DNA of 41,528 nt from Acidimicrobiaceae bacterium (GTDB taxonomy: Bacteria; Actinomycetota; Acidimicrobiia; Acidimicrobiales; RAAP-2). Of the stretch, positions 273 through 8,680 are shown piece by piece. The stretch covers positions 1-41,528 of the forward strand of contig PKZO01000072.1 in assembly GCA_003133125.1 (NCBI GenBank). Direction: 5' to 3'. A program made the translations under genes and the position numbers. Position 1 is the stretch's first letter. Each line of letters begins with the position of its first letter. The notes beneath the pieces are model-generated. The model saw only the letters and a program-made list of their open reading frames with translations. It made no database searches and was not told the origin of the DNA.

Positions 273-375
273 ATAAAAGAGCTTTCATCAGGTACGATAA
301 GTTCGTCGAGCCAAGAGCGCTCCCAACCTTTCAAGGTAGCGGCACGGGTTCGAACCCCGTTGACGACACTCTCGA
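273..375 (+). repeat. tRNA-Glu-like repeat element, copy A
   Basis: ATAAA(14 nt)ATCAGG(42 nt)TTTCAAGG(20 nt)TTCGAA; perfect T-arm ACGGG-TTCGAAC-CCCGT at 344-360; same layout at 6629 and 11097. Confidence 0.6.
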
Positions 376-576: not shown

Positions 577-1278
577 TTACCAGAGTCCAGGAAACAACTT
601 CCAGGGGACTCGGGTACGGTAGTTGGCGTAAGAACTGCTTGTGACAAGCAAGTGCTCTTCAACGAGAGCGCGCCCGACGTCGCAGCTGAGCACAAAGACC
701 ACGATCAGCGCATTGCGCACTGACATACTCTGAAGGAAATAGCCGAACAGAAGCAGGAAGTAGGACGCGTAGATGGGATGGCGTACGAAAGCGTACGGTC
801 CACGTTGGACCAATCCCCTGTCAGCCGCGGCGAATCCGAACGAGCGACCGAGGGCCGCGAACGACGCCACGCATATCGCGAGGCCGACCACTTGCAATAC
901 AAGTCCGACGACGATCCCCCAGTGCGGATGAGTCCCCGTGGGTCGCAGCAGCACCCCGCCAAACGTCCCACCGAAGGCGAGGAGCCAGTCGCCCGCTCGT
1001 TGGGTGACCACAGAAGCGGGACGTCTCACTAGATACGCAGCGACGATCCAGATCTGCTCGGCGAAGAATCCTCCGCCGATCAAGGAATGCGTGTCCAAAT
1101 AATGCACGTAGCCCGCTCTCGCAAAGAAAGCGGCGCCAATGGCCCCGACGACATTTGCTGAGATCCTGACAAGGCGGACCCACTGGAAAGCAATGGGGAA
1201 AGTCCGGTGAGAAGGTGGAACCGAAGTCTGACTTAGTTCTGGGAGTTGCGAGCCGCGCGGTCGAGAACTAATGCCCAT
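577..1278 (-). CDS. isoprenylcysteine carboxyl methyltransferase-like membrane protein
   Basis: Multi-TM protein with C-terminal RGPYAFVRHPIYASYFLLLFGYFL...EEHLL...YANYRTRVPWKLFPGLW, typical of ICMT/PEMT family; ATG at 1278 overlaps the DoxX stop. Confidence 0.75.
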   Translation of the reverse strand: MGISSRPRGSQLPELSQTSVPPSHRTFPIAFQWVRLVRISANVVGAIGAAFFARAGYVHYLDTHSLIGGGFFAEQIWIVAAYLVRRPASVVTQRAGDWLLAFGGTFGGVLLRPTGTHPHWGIVVGLVLQVVGLAICVASFAALGRSFGFAAADRGLVQRGPYAFVRHPIYASYFLLLFGYFLQSMSVRNALIVVFVLSCDVGRALVEEHLLVTSSSYANYRTRVPWKLFPGLW

Positions 1279-1804
1279 CGACGGATCCGTGTCTCTGCGC
1301 GGCCATACCCAGGCGACGGGCCACGAGAGCGTCCACGCTGTATGGACCCGAACCAAAGGCCACCACGATCAGCGCCAAGGTCGCGAGGGAAAGGTTGAAC
1401 TCGTAACCTGGCGTCGCCGACAAGGAATTGATCCCGTGTTTTCCGGTTACCGTGATAATCGCCATAACTTGGTCTCCGATGAGCGCGAGGCCCGCCAGGC
1501 GCGAGCCCAACCCGACTATGAGCGCGAGCGCCCCTCCGAACTCAATGACTCCTCCAAGGACAGCGAAGAACTCTCCGGGATGAAGGTGAGCGGTCGCAGA
1601 GAAGAAGACCGCCGTGCGGTGGATGCCCGGACCGTTGAACAGTCCGAAGAGCTTTCCGGCCCCGTAATACGTGAAGATCCAGGCGAGCACGATTCGCACA
1701 ACCACAAGAGCAACATCGGTCGCCGGGTTTGAGGGGCTCGTTTTCAGCAGCGCAGACAAAAGTGGGCGGACTTTTACCAATGGAGTGGAGTTGCGCGCGT
1801 TCAT
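1268..1804 (-). CDS. DoxX family membrane protein
   Basis: RIVLAWIFTYYGAGKLFGLFNGPGI...GGVIEFGGALALIVGLGSRLAGLALIGDQVMAI typical of DoxX. Confidence 0.85.
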   Translation of the reverse strand: MNARNSTPLVKVRPLLSALLKTSPSNPATDVALVVVRIVLAWIFTYYGAGKLFGLFNGPGIHRTAVFFSATAHLHPGEFFAVLGGVIEFGGALALIVGLGSRLAGLALIGDQVMAIITVTGKHGINSLSATPGYEFNLSLATLALIVVAFGSGPYSVDALVARRLGMAAQRHGSVDGH

Positions 1805-2847
1805 CGTGAGGGTGTCGCCGGAGAACCAGTGATGTCGGTGTCACGGTCCAAGGGACGAAAGGGCCCTATCAGTTGGGCGACCAGAACGGACAAGTGTCGG
1901 GGCACCTCTGCTTCCTGTTCCACCCGCAGCGGCCGGCCGGGGAGACCCGTGTCGGCCCGAATTGTCTCCTTCGTGGGGAAGACCGCCCGATGGAAGAGCT
2001 GGTCCCAAATGGTCAGAGCGAACCCCAAGTTGACGTCCTGGCGACCTTCTAAACGGTGATGAATACGGTGGTAGTTCGGGCTGACGAATATCCGCCCCAG
2101 GGGACCGAACCCCAAGTTCGTGTTCGAGTGCTCGAATGCGACGAACCCGGCGTAGGCCACCAGCAAAGTAGTCGGAACGGCGCCATTGGCGATGAGGACG
2201 ATTCCCGGAACCAACGTCATGAGGTAGGAGACGTGAATGAGTGGATGAGTTCGAAAGACCGTAAGAACGCTCATGTCCTCTTGCGAATGGTGCAGTTCAT
2301 GGAATCGCCAGAACATCCGAACGCGATGGTTCATCAGGTGCGCGAGCCAATTGCAGCCGTCCATGGCGACAAAGATCAAAACGATCACGGCCGAACGCGG
2401 AAGAAAACCAAATCGTGGCAGAACAATCCACGGCAAGGTCCTGCGCGCAACCAAGGCGAAGGACAGTGACAGAGCGACCACCAGGGGGGCGACGATTGTT
2501 GCGTTCAAGATCGTGTACAGCAGGTCCTGTCGATATCCTCGAGCGAAAATCGGTCGCCTTTGGGCAGGGTGCAGCCGCTCCACCACCAAAAAGGCGGCGA
2601 GGATTGCAATCGTTACCGGCCCCACGAGGACTACTCGTAGTCCAGTCATCGAGGCAGCGAAGTTGCTGCCGCCCCAGCGACTCGCCCAACCAATGGCCAC
2701 GAGCACCGTCGCCACCGCCGCAATTGAAAAAGCGGGCAGGTACACGCGCGACGACAGTTGAGATCGCGACTCATCCTTCCCGGACGATTCGGGTAGGGCG
2801 AGTGCGTACGGAAGAAAATAGCCTAACGACTCCGTCTCAGTGGACAT
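1801..2847 (-). CDS. sterol desaturase / fatty acid hydroxylase family protein
   Basis: Histidine boxes HLMNHR, HELHHSQ, NYHRIHHR with multiple TM segments. Confidence 0.88.
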   Translation of the reverse strand: MSTETESLGYFLPYALALPESSGKDESRSQLSSRVYLPAFSIAAVATVLVAIGWASRWGGSNFAASMTGLRVVLVGPVTIAILAAFLVVERLHPAQRRPIFARGYRQDLLYTILNATIVAPLVVALSLSFALVARRTLPWIVLPRFGFLPRSAVIVLIFVAMDGCNWLAHLMNHRVRMFWRFHELHHSQEDMSVLTVFRTHPLIHVSYLMTLVPGIVLIANGAVPTTLLVAYAGFVAFEHSNTNLGFGPLGRIFVSPNYHRIHHRLEGRQDVNLGFALTIWDQLFHRAVFPTKETIRADTGLPGRPLRVEQEAEVPRHLSVLVAQLIGPFRPLDRDTDITGSPATPSR

Positions 2848-2873: not shown

Positions 2874-3425
2874 CTAGAAGCCGACGCCACCACCGCCAGG
2901 GCTCGTCGTCGTCGTGGTGTGAACGCCGCCAGCGGGCTTGATCGTCGCCACGTCAGACCACTTACCCCAGGTGTCAGTCACGTTGCCCTTGACTTGTCCG
3001 GGGGCGGTGTCGAGGACGTACCAGTAGAGCGGTTTGCCAGCGTAGGTGACCTGGAGAGCGCCACCAGATCGAACGACTGTTCCGAGTTTCGCTGCACTAA
3101 CCCCTTTGCCGGCGGTCGCCGAAGTGACGCCCTTGGGAAGCAGCAATTCGGGCCAGAACTTCTGGCAAGAGGCAGTACATGCAGCGCTGCTGGGTTTCAG
3201 GGTGTAGAGGGTCTTGCCGCTAACGAGAATCGTGCCGAACTTTGAGGTCTTTAAGGTCGAGATGACAACGCTTTTCTTGATGTGACTCGTCGCCGCGCCC
3301 GAGGGTCCCACGCCACCCAAGACCAGTGCGAGACCACTTGCAGCGATGCAGGCCGACGCAACTCTTACTGCTTGAACCAACGAAACAGGACGCTGGCGTG
3401 ACTGCGATGTACGAAGTACTCTCAA
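2874..3425 (-). CDS. secreted protein with Lipoprotein_15/COG4315-like repeats (paralog 1)
   Basis: FGTILVSGKTLYTLKPSSAACTASCQKFWPELLLPKG and GKPLYWYVLDTAPGQVKGN; TTG start at 3425 chosen by alignment with the paralog at 5005 (RVLRTSQS vs QVLRVSQS) and an upstream GGGAG. Confidence 0.8.
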   Translation of the reverse strand: MRVLRTSQSRQRPVSLVQAVRVASACIAASGLALVLGGVGPSGAATSHIKKSVVISTLKTSKFGTILVSGKTLYTLKPSSAACTASCQKFWPELLLPKGVTSATAGKGVSAAKLGTVVRSGGALQVTYAGKPLYWYVLDTAPGQVKGNVTDTWGKWSDVATIKPAGGVHTTTTTSPGGGGVGF

Positions 3426-3450: not shown

Positions 3451-3478
3451 ACTACGGCCAAGCAGCGACTTCGGATCA
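3451..3478 (-). promoter_or_regulatory. putative ECF promoter TGATCC-N16-CGTAGT upstream of paralog 1
   Basis: Plus strand ACTACG 3451-3456 and GGATCA 3473-3478, 16 nt apart; same motif at 4855-4882 and 4951-4978. Confidence 0.7.
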
Positions 3479-3596
3479 CAGGACTTCTCGCTCGGAGCGC
3501 CTTTTCCCCACGAATGAGCGTTTGCCGCCGCCGCAGCAGGCGATCGAGTGGCAAATGAAGTCAAGTACAGGACCAACCCCGTGCAACAGTGTGGAC

Positions 3597-4271
3597 TCAG
3601 GTGCGGAGGATGGCGCTTGCGATGACTTTGCCGTCCACGCTCACCAATTGGGCCGTCCGGACCTGATTCCCAGCCGCCTTGAGAGGAGCGGTCCACGCAC
3701 CGTATCCATGCAAGAGAGTGAAGCGACCGACCGTCTCCACGCGTCCGCTCCTAAGGGTGACTTGGCACCATGCAACTCCCGACCAGTTCCCGTCATCCAC
3801 AGTCATGGACATCCAAGAAGGCTTCCCGGGTGTGACGATTACCTGACCGAGAACCACTCCGCTCGACGTGAGTCGCGCCGTTAAAGGTCGAGACGCATCG
3901 TAGTGGGTCGGGTTGGAACCATGAGTCGTCACAGTTCCAACTCCAAATCCAACGACCGCGACGAGCAGGGCCGCCGCCGCGAGCCATATACCGCGATGAC
4001 TCCGCGCGGGCACCGGCTCTGGTTCGTCCTTCAAAAACCTCTCGACAAGCCTTGACTCGAAACCTAACGGCGGCTCTATCTCGGGAGCGAGCAACAATAA
4101 GGCGTCAGTAACAGCCGCCAGTGAATCCAACTCGGCTCTGCAATGCGGGCAAGTCTCCAGATGCTCGAGAACCAGAGATCGATCGCGTCCAGAGATCGTT
4201 CCTAGTGCGAACTCATGAACGCTCCCGCTGATGGCTTCGCAGTTCACTGAGTCATGGGTACGATCACTCAT
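3597..4271 (-). CDS. anti-sigma factor with zinc-binding HX3CX2C N-terminus and RskA-like C-terminal domain
   Basis: LEHLETCPHCRAEL motif, one TM (GIWLAAAALLVAVVGFGVGTV), ATGA overlap with the sigma gene. Confidence 0.85.
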   Translation of the reverse strand: MSDRTHDSVNCEAISGSVHEFALGTISGRDRSLVLEHLETCPHCRAELDSLAAVTDALLLLAPEIEPPLGFESRLVERFLKDEPEPVPARSHRGIWLAAAALLVAVVGFGVGTVTTHGSNPTHYDASRPLTARLTSSGVVLGQVIVTPGKPSWMSMTVDDGNWSGVAWCQVTLRSGRVETVGRFTLLHGYGAWTAPLKAAGNQVRTAQLVSVDGKVIASAILRT

Positions 4272-4849
4272 GATGTCTCCGTAACGGCTACAAGATCGCG
4301 AAGCTTTGCCATACCGAGGCGGACTCGGCCCTTTGCCGTCCCCAAGGGGATCCCTTCTTCTGCAGCTACCTCGGCGATTGTTCTTCCGTACATTGTGGCG
4401 AGCACGACTGCCCTACGTTGCTCAATGGGTAGCGTCGCGAGCGCCGCACGAGCGCGCGCGACGATGTCCGACATCACTGCTGCGTCGTCCTGGCTACGAT
4501 CGTTGCTCATCAAGTTCATGAACACCCGATCCTCCGGTGCCGTGGGAATAGATCGGCGCAACCGCATTGAATCGATTGCTAGGTTCCGGGTGATAGTGAG
4601 TGTCCAGGAGGTCACTGAACCCCGACGCGCGTCAAACACTGATGCGTGGCGAAGAATGCGGATGAACGCCTCTTGTGTCACGTCTTCGGCCAAACCGGGG
4701 TCACCAAGGATACCCAGGGCCAATCCAAACAGGCGACGCTGATAGCGACGAACGAATATCAGGACCGCCTGATCGTCTCTGACTGCGATACCCGAAAGTA
4801 GGGCTTCGTCCGAGATCTCGTTGTCGGAGTCTGCGTCGCTTCTCATCAA
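4268..4849 (-). CDS. ECF RNA polymerase sigma factor (sigma-70 regions 2 and 4)
   Basis: LAEDVTQEAFIRILRHASVFDARRGSVTSWTLTITRNLAIDSMR and LPIEQRRAVVLATMYGRTIAEVAAEEGIPLGTAKGRVRLGMAKLR. Confidence 0.95.
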   Translation of the reverse strand: MMRSDADSDNEISDEALLSGIAVRDDQAVLIFVRRYQRRLFGLALGILGDPGLAEDVTQEAFIRILRHASVFDARRGSVTSWTLTITRNLAIDSMRLRRSIPTAPEDRVFMNLMSNDRSQDDAAVMSDIVARARAALATLPIEQRRAVVLATMYGRTIAEVAAEEGIPLGTAKGRVRLGMAKLRDLVAVTETS

Positions 4850-4854
4850 CAGAT

Positions 4855-4882
4855 AGTACGTCCAAGGCCCCGAAAAGGATCA
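4855..4882 (-). promoter_or_regulatory. putative ECF autoregulatory promoter TGATCC-N16-CGTACT
   Basis: Plus strand AGTACG 4855-4860 and GGATCA 4877-4882, 16 nt apart; -10-like element lies only a few nt from the TTG/ATG start (4849/4846), consistent with a leaderless transcript. Confidence 0.65.
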
Positions 4883-4950
4883 GTCCACCACAGAAAGTTG
4901 GCCCTTACGACAAAGGGGGTGCCCGATACGCCACTTTCTTGTTGATGCAG

Positions 4951-4978
4951 TGATCCAAAGTTGCTTCTCGGACGTAGT
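4951..4978 (+). promoter_or_regulatory. putative ECF promoter TGATCC-N16-CGTAGT upstream of paralog 2
   Basis: TGATCC 4951-4956, CGTAGT 4973-4978; flanks strongly similar to the paralog 1 promoter through the CAAGGGAG Shine-Dalgarno. Confidence 0.7.
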
Positions 4979-5004: not shown

Positions 5005-5646
5005 ATGCAGGTGCTGCGCGTCTCACAATCACACCGAAACCTGATTCCGAGGTTTCACACAACTCGAATCGCGACCCTATGTTTCGCCGCGGGCGGGCTC
5101 GCGCTGATCGCCAGTGGCGCGGGAACGTCGAGTGCGGCGACCGGCCCCACCGCGAAGAACGTTGTCATCTCGACCTTGGTCACCGCCAAGTTCGGAACCA
5201 TCCTCGTGAGCGACACGACGCTCTACACGTTGGTCCCCAGTGACGTAGCGTGCAACACCACTTGTCATAAGTATTGGCCCGAAGTCCTGCTTCCCAAGGG
5301 CGCGACCAAGGCGTCTATCGGTAAGGGGGTCAATGCTTCGAAATTCGCAACGGTTCGTCGCCCGGGCGGGGTTCTCCAGGTCACCTACGCCGGCAAGCCG
5401 CTCTACTGGTTCGCCCTCGACAACGCCCGCGGACAAGTCAAAGGCAACGTCACCGACACATGGGGTAAGTGGTCTGATGTGGTGACGGTCAAGCCCGCTG
5501 TATCGACTACGACAACAACGACTACGGTTCCGCCGACAACCACTACTACCACGCGATTGACCACGACTACTCAGCCCACGACGACAACGACCACTCAACC
5601 CACGACGACAACGACAGCACCGGGTGGAGGGGGAGTCGGTTTCTAA
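5005..5646 (+). CDS. secreted protein with Lipoprotein_15/COG4315-like repeats and Thr-rich C-terminus (paralog 2)
   Basis: Closely similar to the 2874-3425 product (VVISTLVTAKFGTILVSDTTLYTLVPSDVACNTTCHKYWPEVLLPKG; YAGKPLYWFALDNARGQVKGNVTDTWGKWSDVVTVKP); C-terminus GGGGVGF. Confidence 0.82.
   Translation: MQVLRVSQSHRNLIPRFHTTRIATLCFAAGGLALIASGAGTSSAATGPTAKNVVISTLVTAKFGTILVSDTTLYTLVPSDVACNTTCHKYWPEVLLPKGATKASIGKGVNASKFATVRRPGGVLQVTYAGKPLYWFALDNARGQVKGNVTDTWGKWSDVVTVKPAVSTTTTTTTVPPTTTTTTRLTTTTQPTTTTTTQPTTTTTAPGGGGVGF
5507..5625 (+). repeat. low-complexity/imperfect tandem repeat encoding a Thr/Pro linker
   Basis: Repeated ACTCARCCCACGACGACAACGAC units encoding QPTTTTTT. Confidence 0.7.
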
Positions 5647-6628: not shown

Positions 6629-6732
6629 ATAAAGAACCAGCGATCAGGAATGATGTAAACATCAATCTTGAAGCCCATCACCCTTTCAAGTTGGCGGCAC
6701 AGTTTCGAATCCCGTTGGCGTGCGAGAAAATC
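6629..6732 (+). repeat. tRNA-Glu-like repeat element, copy B
   Basis: ATAAA(14 nt)ATCAGG(41 nt)CTTTCAAG(20 nt)TTCGAATCCCGT; CTTTCGTTGC downstream as in copy A; GCCCAA upstream in A (240) and B (6595), each 89 nt before the TTTCAAG. Confidence 0.6.
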
Positions 6733-6901: not shown

Positions 6902-7558
6902 TTAGCCAACCGACGAAGCGACACCCAGATTGGTCACGAGCTCTTCAACACGACCTCGAATCTCATCGCGGATGACGCGAACCGCAATGAGGTCCCTGCC
7001 TTCTGGATCATCGAGATCCCAGTCGACGAAACGCTTGCCCGGATAGATCGGACACACATCACCGCAGCCCATCGAGATCACCATGTCAACTGCTCGAACG
7101 ATCTCGTCGGTCCAAGGCTTTGGAAACTCCTCGTGGATGTCGATCCCGATTTCGGCCATCGCATCAACGACGATCGGGTTCAGTGCCTCCCCGGGTTCTG
7201 AGCCCCCGGTGTAGACGTTGACTTGATCCGATGCCATGCTGCGAAGCCAACCGGCGGCCATTTGACTTCGTCCAGCGTTGTGTACGCACAAAAACAGCAC
7301 ACCCGGCTTGCCGGACTCTGAACTCTCGATCCGTGCCATTGCCTGAAGGCGCTGTCGAGCGAAGCGTTCCGCGAGCACTCCAATGAAGGTCTTTGCCTTG
7401 GATTGGGCCGCGAGTCTCTCGTAAGAATCGACGACAAAGTGCTCGATTGTCTCGTCGTCAAAAGTGCCATGAAACTCCAAGAGCAGATCCGCTAGTGCGG
7501 GACGAAGTGGACGTTGGTCGCTCTGTGGAAGTTCATTAATGAGATGGTTATCGGTCAC
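6902..7558 (-). CDS. arsenate reductase / LMW phosphatase-fold ArsC with N-terminal three-helix-bundle-like domain
   Basis: VLFLCVHNAGRSQMAAGWLR (CX5R P-loop), GGSEPGEALNP, MGCGDVCPIYPGKRFVDWDLDDPEG; GTG start at 7558 after AAGGAGAGG, overlapping the upstream gene. Confidence 0.85.
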   Translation of the reverse strand: MTDNHLINELPQSDQRPLRPALADLLLEFHGTFDDETIEHFVVDSYERLAAQSKAKTFIGVLAERFARQRLQAMARIESSESGKPGVLFLCVHNAGRSQMAAGWLRSMASDQVNVYTGGSEPGEALNPIVVDAMAEIGIDIHEEFPKPWTDEIVRAVDMVISMGCGDVCPIYPGKRFVDWDLDDPEGRDLIAVRVIRDEIRGRVEELVTNLGVASSVG

Positions 7559-7985
7559 GGTTACCCTCTCCTTCGCTCGTGACGGCAAGCAGTCCGTCAA
7601 TGAGGTCCGTGATCCGTCGCTCGACGTCATCGCGAATTGGCCGGACTTCGTCGAGTTGTTTGCCCGCTGGATCAGGGAGTTCCCAATCGACGTAACGCTT
7701 GCCCGGATACACCGGACAGGCGTCGCCGCAGCCCATCGTGACCACAACGTCGGCGCTCAGGGCCATCTCATCCGTCAACTTCTGTGGCCGCTCGTTCGCA
7801 ATGTCGATACCCTTCTCGCGCATCACTTCGACCACCGCCGGGTTGAGTTGTTCTCCCGGCGCCGAACCGGCCGAGTACACCTTGATGCGACCGCGACCTA
7901 TCTCGCGGGCGAACGCCGCGGCCATCTGTGACCTACCCGCGTTGTGCACGCAGAGGAAGAGGATTTCGGGTTGCTCGGTACTCAT
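7548..7985 (-). CDS. arsC: arsenate reductase ArsC (LMW phosphatase fold)
   Basis: EILFLCVHNAGRSQMAAAFARE, SAGSAPGEQLNP, TMGCGDACPVYPGKRYVDWELPDPAG. Confidence 0.92.
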   Translation of the reverse strand: MSTEQPEILFLCVHNAGRSQMAAAFAREIGRGRIKVYSAGSAPGEQLNPAVVEVMREKGIDIANERPQKLTDEMALSADVVVTMGCGDACPVYPGKRYVDWELPDPAGKQLDEVRPIRDDVERRITDLIDGLLAVTSEGEGNRDR

Positions 7986-8680
7986 GGGGCTCCTTGTTGA
8001 TTAACGGTTGGACCGACGAAGGCCTGTATGCGTTCTCGAATTTCATCGACCGCCGCGTCGAAGGCACTCTTCGTGCCTCGCGCGACTGGATCAGGAATAG
8101 ACCAGTGCGACCACATTCTTTCTGAGCCGACCTCTTCGTGGGCTTGGTCACACACAGTGATCACGATGGGAGGCAGCGTCTCCACATTCTCAAGGCTGCG
8201 AGGTGTCGTGGCACGCAGGTCGAACCCCGCACGCCTCGCCGCCGCGATGGCACCAGGATGAACGTGATGAGCAGGATGCGTTCCAGCCGATTGAGCGGGG
8301 GCACCGGTGCACTCGTTCCACAGTGCCGCCGCGAGTTGACTTCGCGCTGAGTTCATGGAGCAGACGAAGAGCACGCCCGAAGAGGCCAATTTGGTAGGAG
8401 CGTAAATCGGCCCAAGCGCTCCACTAATGAGTCGAATGTAGCGACGCCGGCCATCGCCACTCGAGTCGGAACGGGCAATAAGACCGGCTTGTTCCAGCGT
8501 GTCGAGGTGGTGAGCCAGGAGATTCGACGCAAGACCCGTTAGAGCTTGAAGTTCAACTGGTGCGCGATCCGACACCATCAGTTCGTCAACGATCAAAAGA
8601 CGGACCGGATCGCCGAGTGCCGCGTGAAGCCTCGCTCGGCGAGCAATGGTGGGACCGGGGGGCACACGCCACGATATCAC
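7982..8680 (-). CDS. ArsR-type HTH regulator fused to a LMW phosphatase-like domain
   Basis: N-terminus ARLHAALGDPVRLLIVDELMVSDRAPVELQALTGLASNLLAHHLDTLEQAGLIARSDSSGDGRRRYIRL; C-terminus GVLFVCSMNSARSQLAAALW...SAGTHPA; 4-nt overlap with arsC. Confidence 0.88.
   Translation of the reverse strand: MISWRVPPGPTIARRARLHAALGDPVRLLIVDELMVSDRAPVELQALTGLASNLLAHHLDTLEQAGLIARSDSSGDGRRRYIRLISGALGPIYAPTKLASSGVLFVCSMNSARSQLAAALWNECTGAPAQSAGTHPAHHVHPGAIAAARRAGFDLRATTPRSLENVETLPPIVITVCDQAHEEVGSERMWSHWSIPDPVARGTKSAFDAAVDEIRERIQAFVGPTVNQQGAP

Follow-up and report, generated by a model that had tools for sequence, protein, structure and literature searches.

The SigK/RskA pair of mycobacteria (ECF19) consists of a sigma factor and a membrane anti-sigma factor encoded beside it, controls a small regulon of secreted proteins (mpt70/mpt83), and uses the -35 element CCATCC, which is reminiscent of the TGATCC described below. 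Autoregulation of SigK/RskA has been reported, and the redox cysteines C133 and C183 are kept in 94% and 56% of ECF18/19 members (PMC7509140). In Caulobacter, the sigmaF/NrsF pair serves a heavy-metal response by way of an N16 promoter (GTAACC-N16-CGAA) and an operon ending in DoxX (PMC3511200). Classical ECF systems share CGT(A) at -10, a co-transcribed anti-sigma factor, and positive autoregulation (PMC8103513), all of which are also features seen or predicted at the locus analyzed here.

This locus lies in a 41,528-nt stretch of DNA (hereafter the window) from a soil/peat-type actinobacterial MAG (2.01 Mb, 90 contigs, 88% complete). Its sigma protein of 192 amino acids contains only the sigma2 and sigma4 domains (Pfam Sigma70_r2 at residues 31–98 and r4_2 at 132–182) with a short linker and scores above the TIGR02937 cutoff. 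The adjacent anti-sigma gene overlaps the sigma stop codon and is its neighbor in nearly all orthologous loci. Both the domain content and this neighborhood agree with an ECF (group IV) sigma factor, and the overlap suggests that the two genes are co-transcribed.

The nearest NCBIfam model to the window sigma is SigK, but the score of 113.8 bits reaches only about half of the 226 bits that this model sets as cutoff; the nearest solved structure is also SigK (4nqw, E 8e-31). The alignment showed that the window sigma has no cysteine and thus neither of the redox cysteines of ECF18/19, and the predicted targets of its family are Lipoprotein_15 or cupredoxin proteins instead of MPT70/MPT83. The anti-sigma factor has one apparent transmembrane segment (read from the sequence), an extracytoplasmic domain, and an Hx3Cx2C motif (H37, C41, C44) which is invariant in 21 orthologs and marks it as a predicted zinc-type (ZAS) protein. 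The original prediction had considered it RskA-like, a view not supported by this motif, on which RskA does not rely (PMC7406223). The pair was not filed as SigK/RskA on account of the low score, the lack of cysteines, and the Hx3Cx2C motif.

Table 1. Genes and putative promoters of the sigma locus (positions in the window)
Feature	Position	Strand	Details
PEMT/ICMT-like membrane methyltransferase	577..1356	-	domain match; start codon uncertain
DoxX family membrane protein	1268..1804	-	domain match
FA_hydroxylase/sterol-desaturase-type membrane protein	1801..2847	-	domain match
Secreted Lipoprotein_15 (PF03640) paralog 1	2874..3425	-	C-terminal tail TTTTTSPGGGGVGF
Predicted promoter of secreted paralog 1 and downstream operon	3451..3478	-	TGATCC-N16-CGTAGT
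Membrane anti-sigma factor	3597..4271	-	zf-HC2 above cutoff, overlaps sigma stop
ECF sigma factor	4268..4846	-	regions 2 and 4 only, without cysteine
Predicted promoter of sigma gene	4855..4882	-	TGATCC-N16-CGTACT
Predicted promoter of secreted paralog 2	4951..4978	+	TGATCC-N16-CGTAGT
Secreted Lipoprotein_15 paralog 2	5005..5646	+	Thr/Pro-rich linker, GGGGVGF tail

A pattern search of the window detected three exact matches to TGATCC-N16-CGTA[GC]T (table 1) and no fourth copy, even when one mismatch was allowed. This bears out the original prediction, which had placed the same bipartite motif, with exactly 16 nt between its halves, at these three positions of the window only. When the window was simulated 300 times with a first-order Markov model, TGATCC-N16-CGTA appeared 0.06 times on average and at most twice, and the full pattern had a mean of 0; three copies of each were observed. 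The two paralogs share a visibly duplicated upstream stretch of ~75 nt, which includes the spacer and the ribosome-binding site, so that their two sites are not mutually independent within this genome. The spacer of the sigma-gene site, on the other hand, is unrelated to theirs.

Genome-wide scans were carried out by pattern searches and with a sequence model. TGATCC-N15..18-CGTA has 21 matches in the genome of the window, nine of which have N16 (the window's three included). All those outside the window are located inside long reading frames with one exception (C22:149), and this site appears to lie in a reading frame running off the contig end. The seven TGATCT-N16-CGTA sites are likewise all inside reading frames. 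A promoter-like placement was found for none of these 25 similar sites elsewhere in the incomplete MAG, and the window's three sites are the only promoter-like ones within the assembled genome.

The sigma gene is preceded by the same predicted promoter as its putative targets, an arrangement which is conserved in orthologs. Its in-frame TTG (4849) and ATG (4846) are only 7 and 10 nt past CGTA, and most sigma orthologs also have an in-frame start 6–10 nt past this element. With transcription starting at the usual point, 6–8 nt past CGTA, there would be no room for a ribosome-binding site, and thus the sigma mRNA is probably leaderless or nearly so. Leaderless mRNAs are common in actinobacteria, accounting for about one quarter of M. 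smegmatis transcripts (PMC6448022). The two paralog genes have leaders with ribosome-binding sites (AAGGGAG-type before the TTG at 3425 in paralog 1).

Both secreted paralogs belong to the Lipoprotein_15 family (PF03640; 35.9 and 31.6 bits, gathering cutoff 24.4), whose members at these loci have two invariant cysteines. They also match part of the model for the SCO0930 family lipoprotein (NF040526; E 1e-17 and 5e-13), but with scores (64 and 49 bits) far below its cutoff of 275, and no lipobox was seen in either protein. A literature search for COG4315, SCO0930, and PF03640 yielded no functional study. The predicted structure of paralog 1 (mean pLDDT 41, pTM 0.27) was too poor for a fold search, and paralog 2, when compared by sequence with solved structures, gave only weak mucin matches, likely due to its Thr-rich linker. 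The run from paralog 1 through the FA_hydroxylase and DoxX genes to the PEMT/ICMT-like gene has short gaps or overlaps, which suggests that these genes form one operon.

Many of the secreted Lipoprotein_15 proteins and of the cupredoxins at related loci have, at the C terminus, a linker rich in Thr, a Gly-rich tail closed by an aromatic residue, or both. Examples of such tails include GGGGVGF, GGYGY, and GGGTPGY (window 2874–2894 and 5626–5646; loci L052–L092 and L191–L220), and they are present both with and without the promoter. GGG[VI]GF was considered as a hallmark of the regulon and rejected, because Lipoprotein_15 proteins without the promoter have the same or related tails. It is possible that the Gly-rich tail is a sorting or anchoring signal.

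The whole sigma cluster is flanked by direct repeats of 83% identity (window 324–365 and 6679–6720), which resemble the 3' half of a tRNA-Glu gene, from the anticodon arm to the T arm. A single further copy was found in the genome, within a tRNA-Glu(CTC) gene (G000:C16), and the cluster may represent an ancient island that had integrated at a tRNA gene. Further along the window (6902–8680, minus strand), three LMWPc/arsenate-reductase-like genes lie side by side; one of them includes a fused ArsR/MarR-type helix-turn-helix, and another has a phosphatase-like domain at its N terminus.

We then analyzed the distribution of the promoter in related organisms. In a search of 61 genomes, the sigma factor (counted at an identity of at least 63%) was detected in ten genomes of the genus, including that of the window, and two further sigma loci (L069 and L070) were found in named Acidimicrobiaceae MAGs from palsa and bog samples. 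Eleven related loci have the same promoter, always with 16 nt, ahead of both the sigma ortholog and the Lipoprotein_15 gene. Gene order differs among loci, the paralog being directly behind the anti-sigma gene, divergent from the sigma gene, or upstream of it, and the promoter travels with the genes across these orders. TGATC and CGTA are invariant in the 27 promoters of 12 loci (window included), all of which have a spacer of 16 nt; the spacer bases carry ~0.4 bits per position versus ~1.9 in the motif. An unbiased search with the window left out (4+4 dyads, all gaps from 10 to 23, 65 upstream regions) revealed ATCC-N16-CGTA as the top dyad, present in 30 of the 65 regions, whereas no dyad exceeded ten regions in 20 shuffled sets.

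A promoter model of 41 positions, with the best 150 candidates per genome scored, had 22 matches at E<0.01 in 37 congeneric genomes, all of them at sigma or paralog loci. Genomes without a close sigma ortholog had no match at this threshold (best, E 0.0156). Among Lipoprotein_15 genes of the genus, the promoter is present in 17 of 20 in genomes with the sigma factor versus 0 of 15 in sigma-less genomes (Fisher 3e-7, related genomes not being independent). Two genomes (G036 and G025) contain the paralog-FA_hydroxylase-DoxX module with neither a detected sigma gene nor the motif. In another (G010), the module is on a different contig from the sigma gene, yet carries CAATCT-N16-CGTA.

Two additional observations were made in these genomes. 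A second Lipoprotein_15 copy in G034 (G034:C23), far from the sigma gene, has TGATCG-N16-CGTA shortly upstream (L225 3490–3515, minus strand) and may belong to the regulon as a distal member. In G021:C8 (L056 7150–8100), the assembled sequence of the module's FA_hydroxylase gene contains one in-frame TGA.

In a wider set, we examined 41 sigma orthologs from Acidimicrobiia and Propionibacteriaceae. Thirty-three of these have a site at N16, as counted with a -35 pattern drawn partly from the same loci, and every other spacer from 12 to 21 was found in at most one ortholog, a control free of such bias; the remaining eight have no site under this fixed pattern. In other Acidimicrobiia families and in Propionibacteriaceae, the sigma site has CAATC[CT] at -35 and the same 16 nt. 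There the motif is often doubled back to back, before the sigma gene and before a divergent gene, whose product is a cupredoxin in some genomes and a secreted protein of the Lipoprotein_15 family in others (including Tessaracoccus). At two loci (L074 5910 and L076 5951, both minus strand), the product of the divergent gene is a small membrane protein for which no Pfam family scored above cutoff.

The -35 element of this sigma family is YRATCY, in contrast to AAC in classical ECF promoters; AAC was found only in two congeneric orthologs (TGAACC and TGAACT; L061 and L063). The region 4.2 helix (...GTAKGRVRLG... in the window sigma) has two positions, residues 173 and 177 of the window sigma, which change together with the -35 element: the 13 TGAT cases all have S/G and L, the 18 CAAT cases all have T and a residue other than L, and both TGAA cases have T and A. 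In the tree, the TGAT cases make up one side of a branch (support 72/81), and therefore the change represents a single event that should not be counted 31 times. Even so, this matched change supports a direct reading of the TGAT -35 by the local sigma.

Taken at the level of sequence, the identity of the predicted promoter, its exact spacing and conservation, its co-occurrence with the sigma gene, and the matched change in region 4.2 are established, and the local sigma itself would read the three sites. We consider it very probable that the ECF sigma/anti-sigma pair of this locus regulates itself together with a very small number of mostly neighboring genes. The signal would be extracytoplasmic. 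The membrane zinc-type anti-sigma factor would release the sigma factor, with which RNA polymerase would read TGATC[CT]-N16-CGTA. Three outputs would follow: the sigma-anti-sigma pair itself, from a promoter lying almost at the start codon, which probably yields a leaderless mRNA; the operon of paralog 1, FA_hydroxylase, DoxX, and the ICMT/PEMT-like methyltransferase; and the divergent secreted paralog 2.

The original prediction of an autoregulated local ECF regulon is supported by the conservation in orthologs and by the nonrandom placement of the motif. Its expectation that the motif would recur upstream of orthologs is confirmed by the 11 related loci and by the 33 sigma orthologs, and the coupling it drew between paralog 1 and the membrane genes downstream corresponds to an arrangement conserved in related genomes. 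Nor is the motif equally frequent at random genomic positions, as the other matches in the genome sit in reading frames and the congeneric model matches are all at sigma or paralog loci.

One alternative is a genuine ECF-type promoter that serves a different sigma factor of the genome, the local sigma gene being just one target. Cross-regulation among ECF sigma factors is known and the genome encodes other, weaker sigma candidates (12 at first look), but promoter and close sigma ortholog are present or absent together across the 37 genomes, and the -35 change accompanies region 4.2 changes in the local sigma itself; we regard this possibility as improbable. It is more improbable still that a DNA-binding repressor or activator uses the motif as its operator. 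The motif has a direction and is not a palindrome, its spacing is fixed at 16 nt, its second half is an ECF-type CGT(A) -10, and the sigma start codons lie at the point where a -10 of this type would start transcription. Although operators can also be bipartite conserved elements upstream of coregulated genes, no conserved regulator besides the sigma pair was found at these loci in a search for homologs of the window genes. Chance likeness, with the paralog sites explained by duplication and the sigma site by coincidence, can practically be dismissed, because, despite the duplicated paralog upstream regions, only 0.06 copies are expected per window and the motif is conserved in other genomes in differing arrangements.

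The preferred reading, local autoregulation by the sigma factor, makes the locus an autoregulated ECF module of an already known kind, although an unusually clean case. It resembles Caulobacter sigmaF/NrsF in its small regulon, DoxX, N16 spacing, and a negative regulator encoded beside the sigma factor. However, both -35 and -10 differ between the two, and the Caulobacter operon (DUF2282-DUF692-DUF2063-DoxX) contains neither Lipoprotein_15 nor FA_hydroxylase. Caulobacter sigmaF responds to heavy metals; for the window module, a metal signal would be conjecture.

The exported targets are Lipoprotein_15 proteins with two invariant cysteines or copper-type cupredoxins, accompanied by the membrane module with DoxX. 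The likeliest functional reading, and the least certain step of our analysis, is that the output might protect or remodel the envelope under redox or metal stress, which we propose only tentatively. A broader hypothesis, which we consider less likely than not, is that an actinobacterial non-SigK sigma family governs exported redox/metal proteins (Lipoprotein_15 or cupredoxins) as an envelope redox/metal switch, and that in one clade, which also gained the FA_hydroxylase-DoxX-methyltransferase module, the promoter code changed from CAATCY to TGATCY in step with two region 4.2 residues.

An uncultured actinobacterium thereby gains a regulon whose promoter, sigma factor, anti-sigma factor, and targets can be defined from sequence alone. 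Lipoprotein_15, a family of unknown function, gains a regulatory context, and the shared promoter ties it to the cupredoxins of related families. The change in -35 and region 4.2 offers a small and testable example of a sigma factor that changed in step with its promoters.
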